A stretch of DNA of 64,000 bases from contig NZ_QKOE01000004.1 in the NCBI RefSeq assembly GCF_003226565.1, positions 124,001-188,000 on the forward strand, read 5' to 3'. The first letter of the stretch is position 1. Every line of letters begins with the position of its first letter. This document shows positions 3,448 through 37,401 of this stretch, piece by piece. The translations under genes and the position numbers were made by a program. The DNA is from Parazoarcus communis SWub3 = DSM 12120. Lineage in GTDB: Bacteria > Pseudomonadota > Gammaproteobacteria > Burkholderiales > Rhodocyclaceae. Below the pieces are notes generated by a model. That model worked only from the letters and a program-made list of their open reading frames with translations, did not search any database and was not told where the DNA came from.

Positions 3448-5295
3448 ATGGGTTGGAACCGTAAAGTCCTGCGCGTGAACCTCACCGCAGGCACCTGTAC
3501 CGAAGAGCCGTTGAACATGCAGTGGGCGCAGGATTACCTGGGCTCGCGTGGCCTCGCCACCAAATACCTGGTGTCCGAGATCGACCCCAAGGTCGACCCG
3601 CTGTCGGCCGACAACAAGATGATCATGGCGACCGGTCCGCTGACTGGCACCATGGCCTCGACCGGGGGCCGCTACACCGTGGTTACCAAGGGGCCCCTGA
3701 CCGGCGCGATCGCCTGTTCGAACTCGGGCGGCTTCTTTGGTGCCGAGCTGAAGTTCGCCGGCTGGGACATGATCATCTTCGAAGGCAAATCACCCAAGCC
3801 GGTTTATCTCTACGTTGAGAACGACAAGGCCGAGTTGCGCGATGCCGGCCATCTGTGGGGCAAGAGCTGCTGGGATACCGAAGAAACGATCAAGCACGAG
3901 TTGCAGGACCCGCTGGTGCGGGTGTCGTCGATCGGCGTCGCGGGCGAGAACCAGGTGTTGTTTGCCTGCATCGTCAACGATCTGCATCGTGCAGCTGGCC
4001 GCTCCGGCGTCGGTGCGGTGATGGGCTCGAAGAACCTGAAGGCGGTGGCACTGCGTGGTACGCAGGGCGTGTCGGGCATCAAGGATTTCCGCGCCTTCAT
4101 GAAGGCCACCACCGAGGCCAAGAAAGTACTGGCCGACAATGCCGTCACCGGGCAGGGGCTGCCGAAGTACGGCACCCAGGTGCTGATGAACGTGATCAAC
4201 GAGATGGGCGCGCTGCCCACCCGTAACCACCGCGACGTGCAGTTCGAGGATGCGGGCAAGATCTCTGCCGAGGCCATGCACGAGAAGCGCGAGTCCGATG
4301 GCAAGCCGCAGCTGGTGACCAACGCCGCCTGCTTTGGCTGCACCATTGCCTGTGGGCGGATCTCGGAGATCGACAAGGGCCACTTCACGGTCAAGAACAG
4401 CCCGAAGTACTGGGGCGCCTCAGGTGGTCTGGAGTACGAGGCGGCCTGGGCGCTGGGTGCAGCCAATGGTGTGGGCGACCTCGAAGCCCTGCAGTATGCC
4501 AACCTGATCTGCAACGAACAGGGCATGGACCCGATTTCCTTCGGTGCCACCGTGGGCGCGGTGATGGAACTCTACGACATGGGTGTCATCACCCGCGACA
4601 TGCTCGGCATCGATGCGCCCTTCGGTTCGGCCGAAGCGCTGGCGAAGATGGTGGAGATGACCGCGCTGGGCGAGGGCTTTGGCAAGGAAATCGGTCAGGG
4701 TTCCAAGCGGCTGTGCACCAAGTTTGGCCATCCCGAGCTGTCGATGAGCGTGAAGGGGCAGGAGTTCCCCGCCTACGACTCGCGCGGCATCCAGGGCATG
4801 GGCCTGACGTACGCGACCTCCAACCGTGGTGCCTGCCACCTGCGCTCCTACACCGTGGCGTCCGAAGTGCTGGGGATTCCGGTCAAGACCGATCCCCTGA
4901 CCACCGATGGCAAGCCCGAGCTGGTCAAGGCCTTCCAGGATGCCACTGCGGTGTTCGACTCGGCCGGTATCTGCGTGTTCACCAGCTTTGCCTGGACCCT
5001 GGCTGACGTGCAACCGCAACTGGATGCGGCCTGCGAGGGCGACTGGAGCATGGACAAGCTCAACGAAGTCGGCGAGCGTGTCTGGAACATGGAGCGCATG
5101 TTCAACAATGCGGCCGGTTTCACCGCCAAGGACGACAACCTGCCGCCGCGCCTGACCACCGAGCCGGCCAAGACCGGTCCGGCCAAGGGCTTGGTCAATG
5201 GTCTGGCCAAGATGTTGCCGGAGTACTATCAGGTGCGTGGCTGGACGCCGGATGGCGAGCCCACCGCGGAAACCCGCTCGCGACTCGGTCTTTAA
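3448..5295 (+). CDS. aorB: AorB, tungsten-dependent aldehyde:ferredoxin oxidoreductase catalytic subunit
   Basis: This 615-residue enzyme oxidises aldehydes to carboxylic acids with a tungsto-bispterin cofactor. The [4Fe-4S] ligands are visible as C295-C298-C302 and, far downstream in DSAGIC, C509. The N-terminal beta-sheet region (TGPLTGTMASTGGRYTVV) and the GGLEYEA segment with E329 and E331 are family hallmarks around the pterin and active site. The length is normal. A GAGGAGG site precedes the ATG at 3448. Neighbouring aorA and aorC make this the betaproteobacterial multi-subunit type that can use NAD+ through AorC, not a stand-alone archaeal enzyme. Confidence 0.95.
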   Translation: MGWNRKVLRVNLTAGTCTEEPLNMQWAQDYLGSRGLATKYLVSEIDPKVDPLSADNKMIMATGPLTGTMASTGGRYTVVTKGPLTGAIACSNSGGFFGAELKFAGWDMIIFEGKSPKPVYLYVENDKAELRDAGHLWGKSCWDTEETIKHELQDPLVRVSSIGVAGENQVLFACIVNDLHRAAGRSGVGAVMGSKNLKAVALRGTQGVSGIKDFRAFMKATTEAKKVLADNAVTGQGLPKYGTQVLMNVINEMGALPTRNHRDVQFEDAGKISAEAMHEKRESDGKPQLVTNAACFGCTIACGRISEIDKGHFTVKNSPKYWGASGGLEYEAAWALGAANGVGDLEALQYANLICNEQGMDPISFGATVGAVMELYDMGVITRDMLGIDAPFGSAEALAKMVEMTALGEGFGKEIGQGSKRLCTKFGHPELSMSVKGQEFPAYDSRGIQGMGLTYATSNRGACHLRSYTVASEVLGIPVKTDPLTTDGKPELVKAFQDATAVFDSAGICVFTSFAWTLADVQPQLDAACEGDWSMDKLNEVGERVWNMERMFNNAAGFTAKDDNLPPRLTTEPAKTGPAKGLVNGLAKMLPEYYQVRGWTPDGEPTAETRSRLGL

Positions 5296-5313
5296 ACCTG
5301 ACCTGTAAGCCAT

Positions 5314-5372
5314 CTGGCGGCGGCAAGCTGCCGCCGCCAGTGTTGATCGTACCGCCCCGCAAGGGGCGGTAC
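5314..5372 (+). other. Two perfect tandem hairpins between aorB and aorC
   Basis: CTGGCGGCGGCA-agc-TGCCGCCGCCAG (5314-5340) and GTACCGCCCC-gcaa-GGGGCGGTAC (5349-5372) are perfect inverted repeats 8 bases apart. The second has a GNRA-type loop. No T-run follows either, so they are not simple intrinsic terminators. They more likely protect the 3' end of aorAB mRNA or lower expression of aorCDE. Confidence 0.8.
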
Positions 5373-5394
5373 GCCCTTGCATCGAGGATGCTGC

Positions 5395-6663
5395 ATGAAA
5401 CACGTGATACTCGGTAACGGCCCCGCGGGTGTGGTGGCGGCCGAAACCCTGCGCCGCGCCGCGCCGCAGGACGAAATCGTGCTGGTGGGCAACGAGGATG
5501 CGCCGCCGTACTCGCGCATGGCCATCCCTTATCTGCTGGAAGAGAACATCGACGAAACCGGCACCTATCTGCGCAAGGCGCCGGGCCATTTCGAAAAGCT
5601 CCGTATCCGCGAATTGCGCGGTCGCGCGGTTGCACTGGATACCGACCAGCGCCGCATCCTGTTCTTCGATGGTCACTTCGAAGACTATGACCGGCTGCTG
5701 ATCGCGACGGGATCGCACCCGGTGCGGCCGCCGATTCCCGGTGTGGATCTGCCCGAGGTGCAGACCTGCTGGACGCTGGAAGACGCCCGCGCCATTGCCC
5801 GCCATGCCCAACCCGGTGCCAGGGTGCTGCAACTTGGCGCCGGCTTCATCGGCTGCATCATCATGGAAGCGCTGGCCAAGCGCGGAGTCGAGCTGACAGT
5901 GGTCGAAATGGGCGACCGCATGGTACCGCGGATGATGACGCCTCAGGCAGGCGGCATGATCAAGCGTTGGGTCGAGGACAAGGGCATCCGTGTGGTGACC
6001 CAGGCGGGTGTCAGCCGCATCGACCGCCACGACGGCGACACGCCCTTGAAGGTGACCCTGACCACCGGCGACACGCTCGATTGCGATCTGGTCATCGTCG
6101 CTGCCGGGGTGGCGCCCAATGTGGCCTTTCTGGAAGGTACCGGGGTGCATGTGGCCAAGGGGGTGCTGGTGGATGACAAGCTGGAGACCAGTGTTCCGGG
6201 TATCTATGCCGCAGGTGACGTGGCCGAGGCGCCCGACCTGTTTACCGGTGCCCACCTGGTCGCGGCGATCCAGCCCAACGCAGCCGATCAGGCACGGGTG
6301 GCGGCGCTCAACATGGCCGGTCGTCAGACCCGGCTCAATGGCGTGCTGGCGATCAACGTGCTTGATACCCTGGGGCTGATCTCCACCTCTTTCGGGCAGT
6401 GGTGGGGCGAGACTGCGGACAAGGGTGGTCAGGGCGTCGAGCATGTTGACGAAACGCGCAGCCGCTATCTCAGTCTGCAGTTCAAGGACGACGTGCTGAT
6501 CGGTGCAACCTCCATCGGGCTGACCGAGCATGTCGGTGCGCTGCGTGGCCTGATCCATGGTCAGGTCAGACTGGGCAAGTGGAAGGATCGCCTGCTGGAG
6601 ACCCCGCTGGCCTTCGTCGAGGCTTACGTCGCCACTTCGCAGCCGATGGCGTTGACGCGTTGA
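5395..6663 (+). CDS. aorC: AorC, FAD/NAD(P)-dependent oxidoreductase subunit
   Basis: This 422-residue flavoprotein belongs to the NADH-dependent ferredoxin/rubredoxin reductase fold. The FAD motif GNGPAG is at 7-12, the NAD(P) motif GAGFIG at 148-153, and the second FAD motif YAAGDVAEAP comes near residue 275. In AOR complexes it connects the iron-sulfur chain to NAD+. The ATG at 5395 is preferred to one 18 bases upstream because the family's N-terminal beta strand (MKHVILG) starts there. Tandem hairpins precede it and could make it less abundant than AorA and AorB. Confidence 0.9.
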   Translation: MKHVILGNGPAGVVAAETLRRAAPQDEIVLVGNEDAPPYSRMAIPYLLEENIDETGTYLRKAPGHFEKLRIRELRGRAVALDTDQRRILFFDGHFEDYDRLLIATGSHPVRPPIPGVDLPEVQTCWTLEDARAIARHAQPGARVLQLGAGFIGCIIMEALAKRGVELTVVEMGDRMVPRMMTPQAGGMIKRWVEDKGIRVVTQAGVSRIDRHDGDTPLKVTLTTGDTLDCDLVIVAAGVAPNVAFLEGTGVHVAKGVLVDDKLETSVPGIYAAGDVAEAPDLFTGAHLVAAIQPNAADQARVAALNMAGRQTRLNGVLAINVLDTLGLISTSFGQWWGETADKGGQGVEHVDETRSRYLSLQFKDDVLIGATSIGLTEHVGALRGLIHGQVRLGKWKDRLLETPLAFVEAYVATSQPMALTR

Positions 6664-26387: not shown

Positions 26388-28370
26388 TCAGAAGAAGCGG
26401 TATTCGACGCCGACGATGCCGTAGGTGCCAGGCTGCTTGTAGCCCAGCCCCTCGGGGGCATCGGCGTCAAACACGTTCTCCACGCGTGCATACAGCGAGA
26501 CGTCCTTGCTCACTGCGTAGCGGGCGGCAACATCCACGCGCACGTAGTCGTCGATCCAGTCACGACCGGTCCAGTCCAGACGCTTGTCGGTGTAGTACGC
26601 ATGGGCGCTGGCAGAGAACGGGCCCTTGACATAGAACAGCCCCAGGTTGGCCTTGTGGCGCGCGATCTGCACCGTGCGCTCGTCGTCGGCGCCCACCTTT
26701 CGGGTATGCGAGTCGGTGTAGGTGTAGTTGCCTTTCACCGTCCATGCGTCGTCCAGCGCCCACGCCAGGCTGAACTCGATGCCGCGGGTGCGCTGCTTGT
26801 CGGCGTTGGCATACTGGCCATAGCCATACGGGTTGTTGGGGTTGGCGATGCTGCTGTCGTAGATCACGACGTCGCTGACTTGCGCGTGCCACAAGGTGGC
26901 TTCCCAGTTCAGGCCCGTATTGGCGAGGTGCTGGCGTACGCCGATCTCGGTGGTGCGACCGCTTTCCGGCTTCAGTGTCACGCTACCGTAGTTAGGATTG
27001 AACAACTGCTGCAACGTCGGTGCGCGATAGCTCGTACCGTGATTGGCGAACAGGGTGAGACTGCCGAGGCGGTAACTGGCGCCCAGGCTGCCGGTGGTCT
27101 TGTCGCCCCATACATCGTAGTCGTCATGACGCAGACCCGCGGCGAGGGTGAGGCCGCTGTCACCCACGGCGTATTCGCCATTCACGTAGAAGGATCCGCG
27201 GTCTGCCTCGCCCTTCAGCGTGCCCCAGCGCCCCCATTGGCGGGTGCTCGACTCGTAGCGCTCGGCGCCTGCCAGCGCCTTCAGGCCGTCTGCTGCGTAG
27301 CGCAGGCTGTAGTCGAACTGGGTGCTGCGATCCTTGTTGTGTGCGGTCAGCGGGCTGCCACTGTCGTGGATGGGGACGGCGTCGCCCTGGTTGTAATAAT
27401 CCATCCAGTTGACGGTGAAGTTGTCCCACGGCGCTGTGATGTAACCCAGCAGGCCGTCGTCGAGGTCGCGACTCTTGCGTTGGGACAGCGTCTGGCCGGC
27501 CGCCAGCCGATGGCTCAGGGTGGTGCTCAGGTGGTGTTCCACATAGGCCTGCAGGACGGCGGTCCGGGTTGTGTTGTAGGCGTTGGGATCGGGCAGCTGG
27601 CCCCCCCAGTAGGACGGGCGCGCGCTGCGTGTCACCTCGGTCAGGTGGGCGTAGTCGAAGCGGCTGTCGGTGTGCCACAGCGAGATGCCGGCGTCGATCT
27701 GTTCGGTGCTGTAGTCCGCGGCAAACTGGAAAGTCTCGTCCTTGAAGCCTTCGTACTTGTGCACCCCATCGCTATCGACCCTGGAGGCATGCACCGAAGT
27801 GCGGAGCTGCCCCGGGCCCAACTCGACCGCGTGTTGCCACGATGCCTTCAGTTTCTGCCAGCCCAGTGAGCCGGCTTCCGCGCCGACCGACAGGCGCGGG
27901 GCGCCGCCGCGTTTCGTCGTGATGGAGATGACACCTGCGGTGGCATTGGCACCGTACAGCACGGCCTGCGGGCCGCGCAGGACTTCGATGCGGGAGATGG
28001 AAGCAGGGTCCAGCTGACTGAGCAGGTTGCCGACGTCACCCGAGCCGGCCTGATTCAGCGTCACGCCATCCACCACAACCAGTACATGACCTGCGCCGAA
28101 GCCGCGCATCTTCAGATAGTTGTACTGACCCGGTCCGCCGACCTGCTTGAACTCGATGCCGGCAAGGCTGCGCAGGATCTCGGTGACGTCGGTGTAGCCG
28201 CCGCGCGCAATTTCTTCTGCTTCGACGACGGAGGCGGACTGGGTCAGCGTGGACGAGGCTTTGTCGAGTCGACTGGCCTCGATGGTCATCTCGGGCAGCA
28301 AGGTGTCAGCCGCCTGAGCCGCTGGCAGCAGGGCGAGTGCCGTGGCGGCACTCAACAAGGCGTGTTTCAT
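26388..28370 (-). CDS. btuB: TonB-dependent vitamin B12 receptor
   Basis: This 660-residue outer-membrane receptor has a signal peptide ending at AQA. A TonB box region (DTLLPEMTIEAS), a plug domain with RGFGAGHVLVVVDGVTLN and VLRGPQAVLYGANATAGV, and a barrel ending in YRFF follow. It imports cobalamin or other corrinoids. A cobalamin riboswitch lies about 235 bases upstream on the same strand. Confidence 0.92.
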   Translation of the reverse strand: MKHALLSAATALALLPAAQAADTLLPEMTIEASRLDKASSTLTQSASVVEAEEIARGGYTDVTEILRSLAGIEFKQVGGPGQYNYLKMRGFGAGHVLVVVDGVTLNQAGSGDVGNLLSQLDPASISRIEVLRGPQAVLYGANATAGVISITTKRGGAPRLSVGAEAGSLGWQKLKASWQHAVELGPGQLRTSVHASRVDSDGVHKYEGFKDETFQFAADYSTEQIDAGISLWHTDSRFDYAHLTEVTRSARPSYWGGQLPDPNAYNTTRTAVLQAYVEHHLSTTLSHRLAAGQTLSQRKSRDLDDGLLGYITAPWDNFTVNWMDYYNQGDAVPIHDSGSPLTAHNKDRSTQFDYSLRYAADGLKALAGAERYESSTRQWGRWGTLKGEADRGSFYVNGEYAVGDSGLTLAAGLRHDDYDVWGDKTTGSLGASYRLGSLTLFANHGTSYRAPTLQQLFNPNYGSVTLKPESGRTTEIGVRQHLANTGLNWEATLWHAQVSDVVIYDSSIANPNNPYGYGQYANADKQRTRGIEFSLAWALDDAWTVKGNYTYTDSHTRKVGADDERTVQIARHKANLGLFYVKGPFSASAHAYYTDKRLDWTGRDWIDDYVRVDVAARYAVSKDVSLYARVENVFDADAPEGLGYKQPGTYGIVGVEYRFF

Positions 28371-28550: not shown

Positions 28551-28604
28551 CGCTACTGCAACGGTGTTGCCGCCCATCCAGAGCCCTCGCTCGACGGTAC
28601 AGTA

Positions 28605-28775
28605 ACGACTCGCATTGGCAGGTCTCCTGGCTCACGCTTCAACGCGGACCATCACCTTCCCACCCGGATACGGGCAGTGGTATGTCGATGGCCTACTCGG
28701 CGCTTACAGTTGCGAGGACAGCCACGGAGTTTCACCGTGTTCCCTTTTTCATCCCGGATGCCTGAAAGTTTCAAG
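28605..28775 (-). ncRNA. Cobalamin riboswitch upstream of btuB
   Basis: On the minus strand the order of conserved blocks is typical: GGGAACACGGTGAAACTCCG, then GTGGCTGTCCTCGCAACTGT, ending in the B12 box GAGCCAGGAGACCTGCCA (28633-28616). It should bind adenosylcobalamin and reduce btuB-operon expression. Confidence 0.93.
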
Positions 28776-28797
28776 CGGGAGCGCAATGCTGGGCGGG

Positions 28798-28827
28798 AAT
28801 ATCGAGCATGCCATAGCCCGCTGTCAA
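28798..28827 (-). promoter_or_regulatory. Sigma70 promoter of the btuB transcript
   Basis: The minus strand has TTGACA (28827-28822) and GATATT (28803-28798) with 18 bases between. It lies immediately upstream of the btuB riboswitch, so the riboswitch would form the start of this RNA. Confidence 0.6.
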
Positions 28828-28938: not shown

Positions 28939-28959
28939 TCGGCCTGATACCGATCAGGG

Positions 28960-29150
28960 AGCCTTGGGGCACGTCCGTGCCCTGGGGTGAAACGGGAAGT
29001 CCGGTGACGCGAGTGCAACACGCTTGCCATTCCGGCGCAGCCCCCGCTGCTGTAAGCCTGACGGCGCCGTCAACATGTGACCCACTGGGCATTCTGCTCC
29101 GGGAAGGGCGACGGCGACCGGATGATGGCGAGCCAGAAGACCGACCCTTT
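28960..29150 (+). ncRNA. Cobalamin riboswitch upstream of cobO
   Basis: Conserved blocks appear in order: GGGAAGTCCGGTG at 28994-29006, ATTCCGGCGCAGCCCCCGC, CTGCTGTAAGCCTGACG, and the B12 box GAGCCAGAAGACCGACCC at 29129-29147. It controls the long biosynthetic operon starting with cobO. It is arranged back to back with the btuB riboswitch. Confidence 0.93.
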
Positions 29151-29308
29151 TCGACTGACAGCTGAATTGCCCCGGGGTGTGGGTGGATTTGCGATGACTT
29201 GACGGTGCGGTATGGCCGTTTTTCGCGATTGGCATGGGTGCCGATCATGCGAAAGGCATCTCATGTCCTCTTGTCTGCCGGGGCTTACCAAGTCATGGAG
29301 CCAGGACG

Positions 29309-30084: not shown

Positions 30085-31161
30085 ATGCGCGCTCAAGCCA
30101 GGATTCCTGCCACCATCGTTACCGGCTTTCTCGGTAGCGGCAAGACCACGCTGCTTCGCCATATCCTCGCCAATGCCGGCGGACGCCGCATCGCGGTGAT
30201 CGTCAATGAGTTTGGCGAGCTCGGCATCGACGGCGAGATCCTGCGCGGCTGCGGCATCGGTTGTGATGAGGATGGCCGCGAGCAGGCCGGCCAGCTTTTT
30301 GAGCTAGCCAATGGCTGCCTGTGCTGCACCGTTCAGGAGGAGTTCTATCCGGTGATGCGTGAGCTGATCGCGCGTCGCGACGACATTGACCACATTCTGA
30401 TCGAGACCTCGGGTCTGGCGCTGCCCAAGCCTCTGGTGCAGGCCTTCAACTGGCCGGAGGTCAAGACCGCGTGCACCGTGGATGCGGTGATCACCGTGGT
30501 GGATGTGCCTGCCGCAGCGGCCGGACAGTTCGCCGCCAACCCGTCTGCAGTGGACGCTCAGCGTCGTGCCGACCCCAACCTGGATCACGAGTCGCCGCTG
30601 CACGAGTTGTTCGAGGATCAGCTGTCGGCTGCAGATCTGGTCGTGCTGTCCAAGCTGGATCTGGTCGATGACGAGGCGCGAGCCGCGGTCGAGACGCTGT
30701 GCCGCGAGGAGCTGCCGCCCGCAGTCAAGCTGGTCGCCGCCGACCACGGCCGCATCGATCTCGACCTGATCCTCGGCCTCGAGGCTGCCGCGGAAGACAG
30801 CATCCATCTGCGTGTCAGTCATCACGACCATGAGGATGGCGAGGAGCACGATCACAATCATGAGGCCTTTCAGTCGATCTCGGTCGAGCTGCCGGTGGTG
30901 GACCGCGAGCGCCTGCTCGCCATCCTCCACGATCTGGTGCAAACCCATACGCTGTACCGGGTGAAGGGCTTCGTCGCCCTCGCCGACAAGCCGATGCGCC
31001 TGGTGGTGCATGGCGTTGGTCGTCGCTTCGACAGCTACTTCGACCGCCGCTGGCGTGCCGACGAGGCGCGCCACACCCACCTGGTGCTGATCGGCCAGGA
31101 TCTCGATGCTGCACGACTGACTGAAGCGCTGCAGGGCGCCGTGTTGGCCGAGGCTGCCTGA
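30085..31161 (+). CDS. cobW: CobW-type GTP-dependent metallochaperone
   Basis: This 358-residue COG0523 G3E GTPase has the P-loop GFLGSGKTT (about 14-22), the metal site GCLCC and the base-specific SKLDLVDD segment. A histidine-rich stretch (HHDHEDGEEHDHNH) lies near residue 250. CobW proteins are thought to deliver cobalt for corrin ring insertion by CobN. Its last base is the first base of cobN. The 164 bases upstream show no gene. Confidence 0.93.
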   Translation: MRAQARIPATIVTGFLGSGKTTLLRHILANAGGRRIAVIVNEFGELGIDGEILRGCGIGCDEDGREQAGQLFELANGCLCCTVQEEFYPVMRELIARRDDIDHILIETSGLALPKPLVQAFNWPEVKTACTVDAVITVVDVPAAAAGQFAANPSAVDAQRRADPNLDHESPLHELFEDQLSAADLVVLSKLDLVDDEARAAVETLCREELPPAVKLVAADHGRIDLDLILGLEAAAEDSIHLRVSHHDHEDGEEHDHNHEAFQSISVELPVVDRERLLAILHDLVQTHTLYRVKGFVALADKPMRLVVHGVGRRFDSYFDRRWRADEARHTHLVLIGQDLDAARLTEALQGAVLAEAA

Positions 31162-34100
31162 TGCATCTGCTCGCCGCCCAGCCGGGGGGATTCGTTGACG
31201 ACGATTCGGTGGTCACGCGCATCGCGCAGGACCCCGCCGATATCGTCATTCTCAGCGCGGCCGACACCACCCTGGCGTTGCTCGCCGCAGCCTGCCCGGC
31301 AGACGGATTTCCCGCAGTGCGGCTGGCCAACCTGCTGCACCTGCGCCAGCCTGCCTCAGTGGATCTCTATCTTGACGAGGTGCTGCAATACGCCCGCGTG
31401 ATCATCATCGATCACCTGGGCGGCGAGAGCTACTGGCCTTACGGCACCGAGCGGGTCGGTGAGCTTGCCCGTGCGCGCGGTATCGCACTGGTGATGTTCT
31501 CCGGTGACAACAGCGAAGATCTCAATCTGCTGATGAAGGGGACGGCCGACATCGACGACGCGCGCACGCTGTGGCGCTATCTGCGCGAAGGTGGGCCGGC
31601 CAATGCGCGCAACTTCTACCGTTTTCTGGGGGCGCGCTTCTTCGGCCGTACGGACACGCCTGAACCACCGCGGGCGCTACCCACCGTGGCCGTGTTCCAC
31701 CCGCGCCACGATCTGGGCAGCGTTGCCGCCTGGCACGACGACTGGCAGCCGGGTGCGCCCTGCGTGCTGGTGCTGTTCTACCGCGCCCACCTGCAGGCCG
31801 GCAACACCGCGGCCTTTGCCCATCTGTGCGAGGTCCTTCAGGCACGTCGCATGAATCCGCTGCCGCTGGCGCTGACCTCGTTGAAGGACATGTTGTGTGT
31901 AGACGCGTTGCGTGCGCTGGTGGTCGAGCACAATGTCGCACTCATCCTCAATACCACCGCGTTTGCGCGTTCTGCGCTTGACGAGCCTGGCGATCACGCG
32001 CTGGCCGGTGACGTGCCGGTACTGCAGCTCATTCTTTCCGGTGGGAATGAGGCGCGTTGGCGGGACGATGCCCATGGCCTCGCGCCGCGCGACATCGCCA
32101 TGCACATTGCGCTACCTGAGGTGGATGGGCGTATCGTCACCCGTGCGGTGAGCTTCAAGGGCCTGGGCCGCCATTGCGAGCGTACTCAGAGTGATGTCGT
32201 GCAGTACCGTGCCGAACCCGGGCGCATGGCTTTCGTCGCCGAGCTCGCACAGCGCTGGTGCCGTTTGCGCGCGCTGCCCAATGCCGACAAGCGCCTTGCC
32301 CTGGTACTGGCCAACTACCCCACACGCGAGGGGCGTATCGGCAATGGCGTGGGCCTCGACACTCCGGCCTCGGTGGTCACGATTCTACGTCGGCTCGCAG
32401 CCGAGGGCTATGTGGTCGATGGCATCCCGGCCGACGGCGATGCGCTGATGGCGCAGCTGCAGCAGGGTGTGACCAATGACCCGGAACACTGGGCCGTTCG
32501 CCCGGCGCATCAGAGCCTGGCTCTGGTCGATTACCTTGCCTTTTTCGACTGCCTGCCAGCGGTCAACCGCAGCGCCGTGGTCGAGCGTTGGGGCCCGCCA
32601 GAGGCGGACCCGATGTTGCGTGCGGGCCGTTTCATGCTCGCAGGATTGCGCTGCGGTCGGGTTTTCGTCGGCATCCAGCCGGCACGCGGCTATCAGCTTG
32701 ATCCTGCTGCGAGCTACCACGACCCCGACCTGGTTCCGCCGCACCACTATCTGGCTTTCTATTGCTGGTTGCGTGAGGTCTGGCGTGCGGACGCCATCGT
32801 GCATGTGGGCAAGCATGGCAACCTGGAATGGCTTCCGGGCAAGAGCGTGGCGCTGTCCGAGGAATGCTGGCCGGATCTGGTATTTGGCCCCATGCCGCAT
32901 CTCTACCCCTTCATCGTGAACGACCCGGGCGAGGGGACTCAGGCCAAGCGCCGCGCCCAGGCGGTGATCATCGACCACCTGATGCCGCCGCTGACCCGCG
33001 CCGAGAGCTACGGCCCCACGCGCGACCTGGAGCGCCAGGTGGACGAGTACTACGAGGCACTGATGCTCGACCCGCGTCGCGCGGCCGAGCTGCGCCGGCA
33101 GATCCTCGACCATATCGTGCGCCACGACCTGCACCGCGACCTCGGTCTTGCTGCGCCCACCACCGCCGATGAGGAGCAGCAGCTGCTCAACCGCACCGAC
33201 ACCTATCTGTGCGAGCTGAAAGAAGCACAGATCCGCGACGGGCTGCATGTGTTCGGCGCCTCGCCAGCAGGGCGCCTGCGCCGCGATACGCTGCTTGCGC
33301 TGGCCCGTCATCCGGTGGGCGACGGTCACGGTGCGCGCCAGGGGTTGACCCGCGCACTTGCCGCAGATTTCGCGCTGGGCGAAGGCTTTGATCCGCTGGA
33401 TGCCGACTGGGGCGCGCCCTGGGCCGGGCCGCGTCCGGCGATGCTCGCCGATCTTGATGCCGGGCCGTGGCGCAACACCGGGGATACCCGCGAACGTCTC
33501 GAGTTGCTGGCGCTCGACGTGCTGGAGAACGGCCTGCCCGCGGCGCTGGCGCATGACTGGCCCCACACCCGCCCGGTGCTTGAGCGCATCGAGGCGGAGC
33601 TCGCTCCTCGCCTCGATGCCTGCGGCCGTGAGGAACTTCATCAACTGTCGCGTGGCCTTGCCGGTCGTTTTGTGCCTGCCGGGCCCAGTGGAGCGCCCAC
33701 CCGTGGTCGCCCCGACGTGCTGCCCACCGGACGCAACTTCTACTCCATCGACACCCGTGCCGTACCCACCCAGACCAGCTGGACCCTGGGCCTGCGCTCG
33801 GCTGAGCGCTTGATCGAACGCTATGTGCAGGAGCACGGCGATTATCCGCGTGCCATTGGCCTGTCGGTGTGGGGGACGGCGACCATGCGCACTGGCGGTG
33901 ACGACATCGCCCAGGCCTTTGCCTTGTTGGGGGTGCGACCCAAGTGGGCCGACGGTAGTCATCGGGTGAGCGATTTCGAAATCCTGCCGATGTCCTTGTT
34001 CGATCGCCCGCGTATCGACGTGACCCTGCGCGTGTCTGGCTTCTTCCGTGATGCCTTTGCCAACGTCATCCGCCTGTTCGATGCCGCGGTGCAGGCAGTG

Positions 34101-34931
34101 GCCGGGCTGGATGAACCTGAAGAGGTGAATCCGATCCGTGCGCGCATCGCCCGCGAAGCTGCGACGCTGGCGGCCGAGGGGCTGGATGCAGACCGTGCGC
34201 GCCGTCAGGCGGGACACCGCGTGTTCGGCGCCAGGCCGGGGGCTTACGGCGCCGGCCTGCAAGGGCTGATCGACGGGCGCAACTGGGAGACCGACGACGA
34301 CCTCGCCCGCGCCTATCTGGAGTGGGGCGGTCACGCCTATGGTCAGGACGACTACGGCAGCGCCGCGCGCGACACCTTCGCACGCCGGCTTGCCGGCATC
34401 GATCTGGTGATGCACAACCAGGACAATCGCGAGCACGACCTGCTCGACTCAGACGACTACTACCAGTTTCAGGGCGGCATGGCGGCGGCGGTGCGCCATC
34501 TCGCGGGCGCCCAGCCGGCAATGTACTTTGGTGACCACAGCAACCCCGGCGCCCCCGCCATCCGCACGCTGGAAGAAGAGATCAGCCGGGTGGTGCGCAG
34601 CCGTGTCACCAACCCCAAGTGGATTGAGGGCGTGAAGCGCCATGGCTACAAGGGCGCGTTCGAGATTGCCGCCACCGTGGACTACCTGTTTGCCTACGAC
34701 GCCACCGCCCGCGTGGTGCGCGATGACCAGTACGCCCGGGTGACGGATGCCTATCTGGAAGACCCCGGCACCCGGGATTTTCTGCTGCGCCACAACCCTG
34801 ATGCGCTGGGTCAGATCTGCGAGCGCCTGCTCGAAGCGATGGACCGCGGCCTGTGGGCGGCGCCCGGTGACTACCGCGAACGCGTCGGGCAACACCTGCT
34901 TGCCGCCGAGCAGCAGCTGGAGGAACGTTGA
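31161..34931 (+). CDS. cobN: Aerobic cobaltochelatase large subunit
   Basis: This 1256-residue protein is the catalytic subunit that inserts Co2+ into hydrogenobyrinic acid a,c-diamide. It is homologous to the magnesium chelatase H subunit. Family segments include VGKHGNLEWLPGKSVALS (about 545) and MHNQDNREHDLLDSDDYYQF (about 1084). The start overlaps the cobW stop (TGATG). Classical partners CobS and CobT are not encoded in the window; a ChlI/ChlD-like gene directly downstream takes their place. Confidence 0.95.
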   Translation: MHLLAAQPGGFVDDDSVVTRIAQDPADIVILSAADTTLALLAAACPADGFPAVRLANLLHLRQPASVDLYLDEVLQYARVIIIDHLGGESYWPYGTERVGELARARGIALVMFSGDNSEDLNLLMKGTADIDDARTLWRYLREGGPANARNFYRFLGARFFGRTDTPEPPRALPTVAVFHPRHDLGSVAAWHDDWQPGAPCVLVLFYRAHLQAGNTAAFAHLCEVLQARRMNPLPLALTSLKDMLCVDALRALVVEHNVALILNTTAFARSALDEPGDHALAGDVPVLQLILSGGNEARWRDDAHGLAPRDIAMHIALPEVDGRIVTRAVSFKGLGRHCERTQSDVVQYRAEPGRMAFVAELAQRWCRLRALPNADKRLALVLANYPTREGRIGNGVGLDTPASVVTILRRLAAEGYVVDGIPADGDALMAQLQQGVTNDPEHWAVRPAHQSLALVDYLAFFDCLPAVNRSAVVERWGPPEADPMLRAGRFMLAGLRCGRVFVGIQPARGYQLDPAASYHDPDLVPPHHYLAFYCWLREVWRADAIVHVGKHGNLEWLPGKSVALSEECWPDLVFGPMPHLYPFIVNDPGEGTQAKRRAQAVIIDHLMPPLTRAESYGPTRDLERQVDEYYEALMLDPRRAAELRRQILDHIVRHDLHRDLGLAAPTTADEEQQLLNRTDTYLCELKEAQIRDGLHVFGASPAGRLRRDTLLALARHPVGDGHGARQGLTRALAADFALGEGFDPLDADWGAPWAGPRPAMLADLDAGPWRNTGDTRERLELLALDVLENGLPAALAHDWPHTRPVLERIEAELAPRLDACGREELHQLSRGLAGRFVPAGPSGAPTRGRPDVLPTGRNFYSIDTRAVPTQTSWTLGLRSAERLIERYVQEHGDYPRAIGLSVWGTATMRTGGDDIAQAFALLGVRPKWADGSHRVSDFEILPMSLFDRPRIDVTLRVSGFFRDAFANVIRLFDAAVQAVAGLDEPEEVNPIRARIAREAATLAAEGLDADRARRQAGHRVFGARPGAYGAGLQGLIDGRNWETDDDLARAYLEWGGHAYGQDDYGSAARDTFARRLAGIDLVMHNQDNREHDLLDSDDYYQFQGGMAAAVRHLAGAQPAMYFGDHSNPGAPAIRTLEEEISRVVRSRVTNPKWIEGVKRHGYKGAFEIAATVDYLFAYDATARVVRDDQYARVTDAYLEDPGTRDFLLRHNPDALGQICERLLEAMDRGLWAAPGDYRERVGQHLLAAEQQLEER

Positions 34932-34933
34932 TC

Positions 34934-36007
34934 ATGGACAGCCTGTTCCCCTTTACCGCGCTGCACGGTCAGCCCTTGCTGCAAACCGCACTGCTGCTGG
35001 CGACCGTCGACCCGCTGATCGGCGGCGTACTCATCGAAGGTCCGCGCGGTACGGCCAAATCCACTGCTGCGCGGGCGCTTGCTGCGCTGCTGCCGAGCGC
35101 GCGGGAAGTGGGGCGCTTCGTCAACCTGCCGCTATCGACCAGCGAGGAGCAACTGGTCGGCTCGCTGGATCTCGAAGCGGCGCTGCAGGGGGGTGAGGTG
35201 CGCTTCCGCCCGGGCTTGCTTGCCCGTGCCCATGAAGGTGTGCTCTATGTGGATGAGGTGAACCTGCTTGCCGACGGCCTGGTGGACCTGCTGCTGGATG
35301 TCTGCGCCAGTGGTGTGAACCGCATCGAGCGGGACGCTATCAGCCACGCCCACCCGGCACGCATCACGCTGGTGGGTACGATGAACCCGGAGGAGGGCGA
35401 GCTGCGTCCTCAGCTGCTCGACCGTTTTGGCCTTCTTGTGCGCCTTGGCAATGTCCTGCCGCCGGCTGAGCGCCAGGCCATCGTGCGGGCTCGCCTGGCC
35501 TTCGACGCGGACCCACGGGCTTTTTCCGAGCAGCACGCCCCGGCCCAGCAAGCGCTGGCCGAGCGCATTGTGGCCGCCCGTGCCACGTTGCCGATGATCG
35601 CTTTCAGCGACGCTGACCACGAGCGGGTGGCTGCGCTGTGCCATGCAGCTGCGGTGGAGGGCGTGCGCGCCGATCTGGTGATGCTGCGCGCGGCCCGTGC
35701 CCATGCGGCGCTTGCTGCCCGCCGTCAGATCGACGTTGCCGACATCGACGCGGTGGCCGAGCTGGTGCTGGCGCATCGCAGGCATGCTCAGGCGGCACCA
35801 GATGCGTCGGCGCCGTCGGCCGGGTCGCAAGCTGCGTCCGCGTCGCAGCACCCCGCTTCCGATCAGGCAAGTCCGGCGCAGGATGCAATGCAGCCATCTG
35901 CGGATGCCGGAGCGCCTGCCGAAGGCGATTGGGGGGCGATGCCATCGCAGGTGCTGCCCATTGCCGGGGTCAAGACCGTGAGGCCGTTGAATGCAAAAAA
36001 GTCCTGA
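34934..36007 (+). CDS. Chelatase AAA+ subunit (ChlI/ChlD-like), short frame-0 product
   Basis: This 357-residue AAA+ ATPase begins at the ATG at 34934, with GGAGGA 9 bases upstream; a TTG at 34928 is the alternative. Walker A GPRGTAKST is at 36-44, Walker B YVDEVNLL follows near 100, and TMNPEEGELRPQLLDRFGL is typical of magnesium/cobalt chelatase I and D subunits. The last 60 residues are an Ala/Ser/Pro-rich linker. Translation stops 4 bases after a slippery A AAA AAG. This ordinary product could act as the small (I/CobS-like) chelatase subunit for CobN. Confidence 0.85.
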   Translation: MDSLFPFTALHGQPLLQTALLLATVDPLIGGVLIEGPRGTAKSTAARALAALLPSAREVGRFVNLPLSTSEEQLVGSLDLEAALQGGEVRFRPGLLARAHEGVLYVDEVNLLADGLVDLLLDVCASGVNRIERDAISHAHPARITLVGTMNPEEGELRPQLLDRFGLLVRLGNVLPPAERQAIVRARLAFDADPRAFSEQHAPAQQALAERIVAARATLPMIAFSDADHERVAALCHAAAVEGVRADLVMLRAARAHAALAARRQIDVADIDAVAELVLAHRRHAQAAPDASAPSAGSQAASASQHPASDQASPAQDAMQPSADAGAPAEGDWGAMPSQVLPIAGVKTVRPLNAKKS

Positions 36008-36678
36008 CGCGTCCTGCGGCATCCGGACCGGATGCCGCAGGACGCGGAGTCCATCCAAAACCTGGGCACCGAGGCCGCGTGGCGCGTCAAACAGGCGCGC
36101 GGATCGACTGGCTACGCACCTTGGTGGCCAAGGGGCCGGCAATGCTGGCACGGCAGCATCTGCGTCATCGTCCGCCGCCGGCCGGTGGCGCGACCTTGTA
36201 TTGCCTGTTGCTCGATTGCTCGGCCTCTATGCTGCGCAGTCGACGGCTGGCACTGGCCAAGGGCTTGCTGCTGGAATGGGCCGCCGAGCGCTATCGCAGG
36301 CGCGAACCGTTTGCGGTGATTGGCTTCGGCGGCAAGGGCGCGCGTGTGCTGCAGGCCCCGCGCAAGGCGGTTGCCTTCAACGAACGATGGATCGCGCCAA
36401 TCGCCGGTGGTGGTGGCAGTCCGGCGGATGCCGCGGTGGCACTGGCCGACCAGTTGCTGGCACGTCGCCGGCGCAGCAAGCCGGACGAACGGTTTGTCGT
36501 CTGCCTGCTTTCGGACGTGCGCTTCACTGCCCTGCCGCCGCGCCCACAGCAGGCCGACCATTGCACCATCATCGATTTCGACGAGGGGCCCCTTGCCCTC
36601 GGTCGGGCGCGGCAGCTTGCGCGCGCATGGCAGGCAGATCACAGATCCGCTGCCGAGCTGGTGTCGGCATGCGCCTGA
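34934..36678 (+). CDS. Chelatase AAA+-VWA fusion made by -1 frameshift (ChlD-like)
   Basis: A -1 shift on A AAA AAG (35995-36001) continues translation in the frame of the downstream VWA region and gives a 581-residue protein. The AAA+ domain and linker are followed by KKVLTRPAAS and then the integrin-I/VWA domain. That domain has the metal site DCSAS (in LLLDCSASMLRSRR) and a later GGGGSPADAAVALAD segment. This is the ChlD/CobT-like medium subunit layout. Downstream, the VWA frame has no ATG with a good ribosome site; a GTG at 36079 with GAGG only 4 bases away is a weak independent start. The VWA sequence is certain; the shift is inferred from the signal. Confidence 0.75.
35980..36046 (+). 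promoter_or_regulatory. Programmed -1 ribosomal frameshift signal
   Basis: All three parts of a dnaX-type signal are present. SD-like GAGG (35980-35983) lies 11 bases upstream. The heptamer A AAA AAG (35995-36001) is in the correct zero frame (GCA AAA AAG). A 6-base spacer holding the zero-frame TGA precedes a 19-bp perfect hairpin (36008-36046, arms beginning CGCGTCCTGCGGC). The -1 frame leads directly into the VWA domain. Confidence 0.85.
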
Positions 36679-36720: not shown

Positions 36721-37401
36721 ATGCATATCGAACCCGGCATCGTCGAAGGTGGCAAGATCCTGCTCAGCTACGGCACTGCGGCTGCGGCCATCGGTTACGG
36801 CGGCAAGCTTGCGATGGAGACCCTCAAGCGGGATGGAGGGGCGTCGCTCGTGCTGCGCGCGCTGCTTGCCACCATGCTGGTCTTTGTTTTTTTCGAAGTC
36901 TTTCCTACGCAGGCCGTTGGCGTCTCCGAGGTCCATCTGATCCTGGGCTCCACGCTGCTATTGCTGTTTGGTGCAGGTCCGACGGCCATCGGCCTGGCTG
37001 CCGGCCTGCTGGTACAGGGCGTGTTCTTTGCGCCTGATGATCTGCCGCAGTACACGATGAATGTCACCACGCTGCTGGTGCCGCTGTTCGCCATCGCCGC
37101 GCTGGCCCGGCGTATCGTGCCGGCAGACAGCGCGTACGTTGATCTGCGTTATGGCCAGGTATTCAAGCTCTCGCTGGCTTACCAGGGGGGCATTGTGGCC
37201 TGGGTGGCTTTCTGGGCCTTGTATGGTCAGGGCGTGGGTGCGGACAACCTGAATAGCGTCATGACCTTTGGTGCCGCCTACCTGCTGGTCGTCGTACTTG
37301 AACCGCTGGTCGATCTGGCCGTGCTTGCCGCCGCCAGGACCTTGCGCTCGCTCAAGGGCAGCATGGCGCTGGAGAAGCGGCTTTACGAAGGGATGCGTTG
37401 A
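36721..37401 (+). CDS. CbiM-like cobalt transport membrane protein
   Basis: This 226-residue protein has about six membrane helices and begins MHIEPGIV, the Met-His N-terminus that binds cobalt or nickel in CbiM/NikM substrate-capture proteins of ECF transporters. Position inside a cobalamin operon indicates Co2+ uptake. The usual CbiN, CbiQ and CbiO partners are absent from the window, so it either works alone or uses partners elsewhere. Confidence 0.8.
   Translation: MHIEPGIVEGGKILLSYGTAAAAIGYGGKLAMETLKRDGGASLVLRALLATMLVFVFFEVFPTQAVGVSEVHLILGSTLLLLFGAGPTAIGLAAGLLVQGVFFAPDDLPQYTMNVTTLLVPLFAIAALARRIVPADSAYVDLRYGQVFKLSLAYQGGIVAWVAFWALYGQGVGADNLNSVMTFGAAYLLVVVLEPLVDLAVLAAARTLRSLKGSMALEKRLYEGMR

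Follow-up and report, generated by a model that had tools for sequence, protein, structure and literature searches.

The window analysed here is a 64,000-nucleotide stretch of the genome of Parazoarcus communis SWub3 = DSM 12120 (contig NZ_QKOE01000004.1, positions 124,001 to 188,000). Within its cobalamin (B12) gene cluster lies a gene with two overlapping reading frames, whose start codon (ATG 34934) is found just 3' of the cobN stop. The features on which the analysis relies are given below in window coordinates.

28940..29163, + strand: cobalamin riboswitch 5' of the cob cluster (RF00174, 90.2 bits)
31161..34931, + strand: cobN, large cobaltochelatase subunit, immediately upstream of the gene (TIGR02257, 1608 bits)
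34934..36007, + strand: zero-frame ORF of 357 aa, AAA+ ATPase, ChlI/CobS-like short subunit (Pfam, TIGR02442)
35980..35983, + strand: GAGG, putative internal Shine-Dalgarno (SD)-like element (sequence; AGG codon bias in relatives)
35995..36001, + strand: slippery heptamer A_AAA_AAG in the zero frame (GCA AAA AAG) (sequence; kept in relatives)
36005..36007, + strand: zero-frame stop TGA, one codon past the heptamer (sequence)
36001..36678, + strand: -1 frame, linker and VWA domain, C-terminal part of the predicted 581-aa ChlD/CobT-like product (225 codons plus stop)
36008..36046, + strand: RNA hairpin, presumed stimulator (stem 36008-36025 with 36029-36046, loop 36026-36028)
36079..36081, + strand: GTG, rival start, the sole -1-frame start with an SD-like 4-mer before the metal-site motif

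Neighbouring genes with profile matches to B12 proteins encode a cob(I)yrinic acid a,c-diamide adenosyltransferase, CobW, precorrin-8X methylmutase, CobI, CobJ, a CbiE/CbiT fusion, CobM and precorrin-6A reductase (other strand). The cluster also holds a CobG-like precorrin-3B synthase (211.2 bits, under its cut-off of 234.8), which together with CobN would indicate an aerobic B12 route. Directly downstream of the frameshift gene is a CbiM-like cobalt uptake protein (36721-37401; PF01891, 53.4 bits), with no NCBIfam match at E 1e-10. A second, divergent cobalamin riboswitch (28600-28802, - strand; RF00174, 119.5 bits) precedes an ORF (26388-28370, - strand) that by eye resembles a TonB-dependent receptor.

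The zero-frame half of the gene matches Pfam families including Mg_chelatase, AAA_5 and AAA_lid_2, and it scores 388.2 bits against TIGR02442 (putative cobaltochelatase), its best stretch covering profile positions 88-343. We take GPRGTAKS and VLYVDEVNLL in this product to be the Walker A and Walker B motifs. A -1 slip on the heptamer would make GTC at 36001 the next codon, and the frame is then open for 225 codons up to the stop at 36676-36678. This part matches VWA_2 (28.3 bits against a cut-off of 27) and TIGR02442 (60.3 bits on profile positions 460-583), in agreement with the original prediction that the -1 frame leads into a VWA domain; DCSAS in this frame is presumably the metal-site motif of that domain. 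TIGR02442 describes in-frame proteins with the same domain order, and its cut-off of 779.45 bits is reached by neither half when each is scored singly. Counted from ATG 34934, the predicted lengths are 357 aa for the unshifted and 581 aa (356+225) for the shifted product, the values claimed beforehand.

Around the junction the zero frame reads GCA AAA AAG TCC TGA. The heptamer thus occupies the predicted register, the 6-nt spacer behind it (36002-36007) contains the TGA, and 11 nt (35984-35994) separate it from the upstream GAGG, all as first described. The hairpin begins 6 nt past the heptamer, right behind the stop. It had been called a perfect 19-bp hairpin; 19-nt arms do flank a single base, but at most 18 pairs can form around a 3-nt loop, and the minimum free energy (MFE) fold has 17. 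The folding energy of an 81-nt segment was -41.8 kcal/mol compared with a shuffle mean of -24.1 (z -5.5, 0 of 200 shuffles as low), and a 60-nt segment gave z -7.6. A dispersed (REP-like) repeat was rejected as the source of the palindrome because, even with 3 mismatches allowed, the 5.0-Mb genome contains a single copy.

A dnaX-type layout consists of a heptamer, an SD about 10-14 nt upstream and a hairpin 5-8 nt downstream, and the window has GAGG 11 nt upstream and a hairpin after 6 nt. The dnaX signal of E. coli likewise combines A AAA AAG with an upstream SD and a downstream hairpin. Shifting in dnaX yields the shorter product, whereas here it would yield the longer one, and the 'dnaX-type' label of the original prediction therefore suits the signal layout and not its outcome. 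We know of no homology between the gene and dnaX beyond the AAA+ fold.

Frameshifted chlD genes (fs-chlD) were reportedly treated by Antonov in 2020 (Mol Biol Evol). The original prediction, which took the principle to be probably known, was right on this point: Antonov et al. 2013 (PMC3711429) describe 23 'magnesium chelatase' -1 frameshift genes, grouped as one cluster and drawn from six genera. Three of these, all distinct from the window gene, were assayed in E. coli, where reporters showed both products and frameshifting was 63, 40 and 10% with runs of 11, 9 and 7 A, respectively (PMC3711429); the window gene has fewer, with 6 A. Atkins et al. 2016 (PMC5009743) report strong purifying selection on the A_AAA_AAR site and a stem in Pseudomonas protegens, a 2021 review of Archaea (PMC8211752) restates archaeal cases, and Kuznetsov et al. 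2022 (PMC9227772) tie fs-chlD frameshifting to CobNST. The locus belongs to this published class, whose mechanism and connection with CobN have been described before. Like fs-chlD genes, the window gene has an AAA+ (ChlI-like) part in the zero frame and an overlapping VWA part in the -1 frame, an A_AAA_AAR site and a downstream RNA structure, with presumed use alongside cobN for an aerobic cobaltochelatase. It also resembles the ChlI/ChlD and CobS/CobT systems, in which a small AAA+ subunit and a VWA-bearing medium subunit accompany a large ChlH/CobN partner. Those subunits are encoded by separate genes, whereas in the window one gene would give both, with an identical AAA+ region.

To obtain relatives, the protein P0001 served as the query for this gene against 199 family genomes and against genome_contigs, from which the best 80 of 576 loci by similarity to P0001 were taken, so the set leans toward genes of the window's type. 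Loci from the window's own genome (L001-L006) and loci without a P0001 match (L007-L009) were dropped before counting, as were L029 and L033, duplicates of L010 and L015, leaving 98 distinct loci, window included. The record titles of these loci (best 80 of 576 included) include Azoarcus, Thauera, Denitromonas, Pseudomonas, Stutzerimonas, Burkholderia, Caballeronia, Paraburkholderia, Cupriavidus, Pandoraea, Variovorax and Rhodoferax.

Conservation of the heptamer had been set beforehand as a test, and an in-register A6[A/G] before the zero-frame stop was found in 83 of the 98 loci (best 80 of 576 included). The counts that follow use 82 loci, again including the best 80 of 576, and omit L068, whose heptamer was recognised later. 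Another A6[A/G] occurred at 0 of 81,078 positions in their upstream ORFs. The stop lies one codon past the heptamer in 82/82 (counted from the last heptamer in L014), and the first slippery codon is AAA in 82/82, although upstream lysine codons favour AAG (234, against 129 AAA). Since the loci were chosen by this motif, weight falls on the 83 of 98 and on the zero elsewhere, not on the invariant AAA. The run of A is 6 long in 49 loci and 6 or 7 long in 80 of the 82. That of L014 (1410-1474, - strand) is 10 long, compared with 6 to 8 in the other 81; it falls in the length range of high published frameshifting, and polymerase slippage could contribute there.

The -1 frame is open for at least 201 codons in 80 of the 82 loci (best 80 of 576 included). 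In one exception, L013, the contig ends within the frame. In the other, L046 (Cupriavidus basilensis OR16), the heptamer and stop are kept and the VWA part is gone (about 5020 to 5510); its -1 frame stops after 65 codons, and the region contains an ORF that by eye resembles an AbrB-type antitoxin. An open -1 frame was set aside as stand-alone evidence, being weak in such GC-rich genomes, where many loci have a long +1 frame as well.

No heptamer was found in 15 of the 98 loci (best 80 of 576 included). Two of them (L017 and L083) end ahead of the site, and four (L018, L019, L086 and L090) each consist of one ORF of 577-643 aa. In L019, L086 and L090 the ORF is uninterrupted with the VWA part in the same frame; L018 had no VWA match with P0002 and has a VWA-like tail by eye. 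The remaining loci, L020-L028, have ORFs of 333-344 aa without an adjacent -1 VWA part; L024 and L026 do have a VWA match, over 1 kb downstream of the ORF.

Among the 82 loci, best 80 of 576 included, the window's 18-pair stem is the longest perfect Watson-Crick stem, and L011 also forms an 18-pair helix once G-U is admitted. Perfect stems of at least 8 pairs are present in 57 of these 82 loci, compared with 3.2% of 1640 mononucleotide shuffles. Not every locus has a strong hairpin, as the downstream fold has a z of -2 or weaker in 18 of the same 82. In the window itself the downstream RNA structure typical of fs-chlD genes is present.

To assess covariation, the 10 close sequences (9 distinct, window included) were aligned. 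The 17-pair structure had 93.3% of cells paired, and the same structure slid by 1-3 columns had 35-45%, a comparison that favours the former because it was read from the window's own sequence. Two-sided changes occurred at 7 pairs, and none of 500 shuffles reached any of five measures. In Pseudomonas, 40 of the 41 heptamer-bearing loci with that title were aligned (39 distinct; L032 omitted), and covariation was weak: 92.7% of cells were paired against 91.2% in shuffles, two-sided changes occurred at 4 pairs, a number that 3 of 500 shuffles attained and one slid control equalled, and further pair types were matched by 21 of 500. Of the 40 Pseudomonas loci, 33 have TAG as the stop, and the last base of the stop forms the foot of the stem in 30 of the 39 distinct sequences. 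In the Azoarcus-like, Pseudomonas and Burkholderia-like groups the stem is spaced similarly from the heptamer and differs in sequence, which points to selection acting on the structure.

The GAGG of the window was related to codon usage at the same place in the 82 loci (best 80 of 576 included). The codon at -14 to -12 is arginine in 20 of them, and AGG in 18 of these 20. AGG accounts for 42 of 2209 upstream arginine codons (1.9%) in the ORFs of the 82 loci. When the 38 alignment columns holding 15 or more arginines are ranked by AGG share, the runner-up has 4 of 28. The rare codon was seemingly kept for the mRNA and not for the protein. The 18 loci include 7 of the 10 close sequences, Caballeronia-like loci, two Candidatus Paraburkholderia, one Cupriavidus, one Pseudomonas (L032) and one Stutzerimonas. 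The pattern is suggestive of selection on an upstream SD-like element in some lineages, the loci being related and the lineages being groups of organism titles. Any SD-like 4-mer at -17 to -8 was present in 22/82 loci (7/10 close sequences, 2/40 Pseudomonas and 13/32 others; best 80 of 576 included), with a background of 7.3% of 26,452 ten-base stretches; with only 22 carriers, the element was rejected as a general part of the signal. The upstream GAGG distinguishes the window from fs-chlD genes as published, and no earlier mention of an SD element in chlD frameshifting was found in the main texts of the papers searched.

The VWA part might instead be a second gene, restarted at GTG 36079 after termination at TGA 36005-36007. 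This GTG is in frame with GAGG ahead of it (36071-36074), and terminating ribosomes would be close by, so the window taken alone is compatible with a weak restart. ATG 35991 was discarded as a VWA start because it lies in the third frame. The statement that the VWA part has no well-placed start is only partly right. Relatives argue against a restart, as SD-linked starts are not conserved in them: an SD-associated start was found in 0 of 8 close relatives tested, and four of these (L011, L014, L015 and L016) lack any ATG, GTG or TTG before the metal-site motif. The start-codon test was extended to 80 loci, best 80 of 576 included, with L013 and L046 omitted and the first 70 codons used for L060, L063 and L074, where the motif was not found. 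Eight of the 80 have no ATG, GTG or TTG before the motif, and a start with a 4-nt SD match is present in just 14, window included. A restart would also leave the in-register conservation of the heptamer and the hairpin unexplained. An independent start of the VWA part is therefore unlikely, and we give it only a slim chance.

Slippage by RNA polymerase on the A run could also generate mixed mRNAs, some of them encoding an in-frame fusion. Six A is short for such slippage, and 80 of the 82 loci (best 80 of 576 included) have a run of 6 or 7; moreover, transcriptional slippage does not depend on the register or on a hairpin spaced so as to make ribosomes pause. In its favour, the site is a run of A, L014 has 10 A, and published efficiency tracked run length (PMC3711429). 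Its chance appears slimmer still. That the gene is a broken ChlD with an accidental stop, through sequencing error or decay, gains something from the uninterrupted ORFs of L019, L086 and L090 with their VWA part in the same frame, but it has a negligible probability, as many genera share the shift, the heptamer and the spacing of the stop, and the hairpin covaries in close relatives.

To place the gene in its metabolic context, the presence of cobN was compared across the 199 genomes of the family. A close relative of P0001 was found in 9 of them (66-80% identity by tblastn, plus the window's own); cobN was present in 9/9 of these and in 3 of the other 190. The heptamer occurs in 8 of the 9 genomes, and in the ninth (L017) the contig ends ahead of the site. 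Among the three other cobN genomes, two have uninterrupted ORFs of 641-643 aa (L018 and L019) and the third has a CobT-like match. CobT had no match at E 1e-10 or better in any of the 9 genomes, window's own included, and CobS, searched in the window's own genome, had none there at E 0.001. The absence of CobS and CobT asserted by the original prediction is borne out for this genome at these thresholds, which gives the fs-chlD pattern of cobN present with cobS and cobT absent. The co-occurrence with cobN and the missing CobS and CobT matches fit a single gene that would supply both CobN partners. The four other genomes of the window's genus (G001-G004) had no cobN match at E 1e-150 and no P0001 match at E 1e-40, suggesting a patchy distribution of the cluster in the genus. 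CobT-like matches of about 260 bits occur, without cobN, in three of these genomes.

Given the conservation of the signal and the analogy with published fs-chlD genes, it is highly probable that the gene is read by programmed -1 frameshifting. Ribosomes that read GCA AAA AAG TCC TGA straight would stop and release the 357-residue AAA+ subunit, the equivalent of ChlI/CobS. Some would pause at the hairpin, aided by GAGG, slip one base back on A_AAA_AAG and continue (KKVLTRP...) into the VWA domain, giving a 581-residue subunit equivalent to ChlD/CobT. We infer that such slippage takes place in the host at some frequency, with roles for GAGG and the hairpin. Both products would have the same AAA+ sequence, and they may assemble with CobN as the motor that drives it to insert cobalt.

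The differences between groups suggest a further, tentative reading, which we regard as possible and somewhat doubtful: that fs-chlD signals swap stimulators between lineages. Azoarcus-, Thauera- and Caballeronia-like loci would keep a selected internal SD, marked by the rare AGG, together with a hairpin that follows the stop. In most Pseudomonas loci the SD is missing, and the first pair of the hairpin takes in the last base of the stop. If stimulators are swapped in this way, the ratio of short to long subunit might be held by compensating cis-elements and would itself be under selection.

The locus adds well-supported fs-chlD members from the Azoarcus/Thauera side of the Proteobacteria, and selection for an SD in some lineages is a possible addition to the published class. 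As a compact cassette, it would make measurable the shares of the SD, heptamer, stop and hairpin in setting the subunit ratio.
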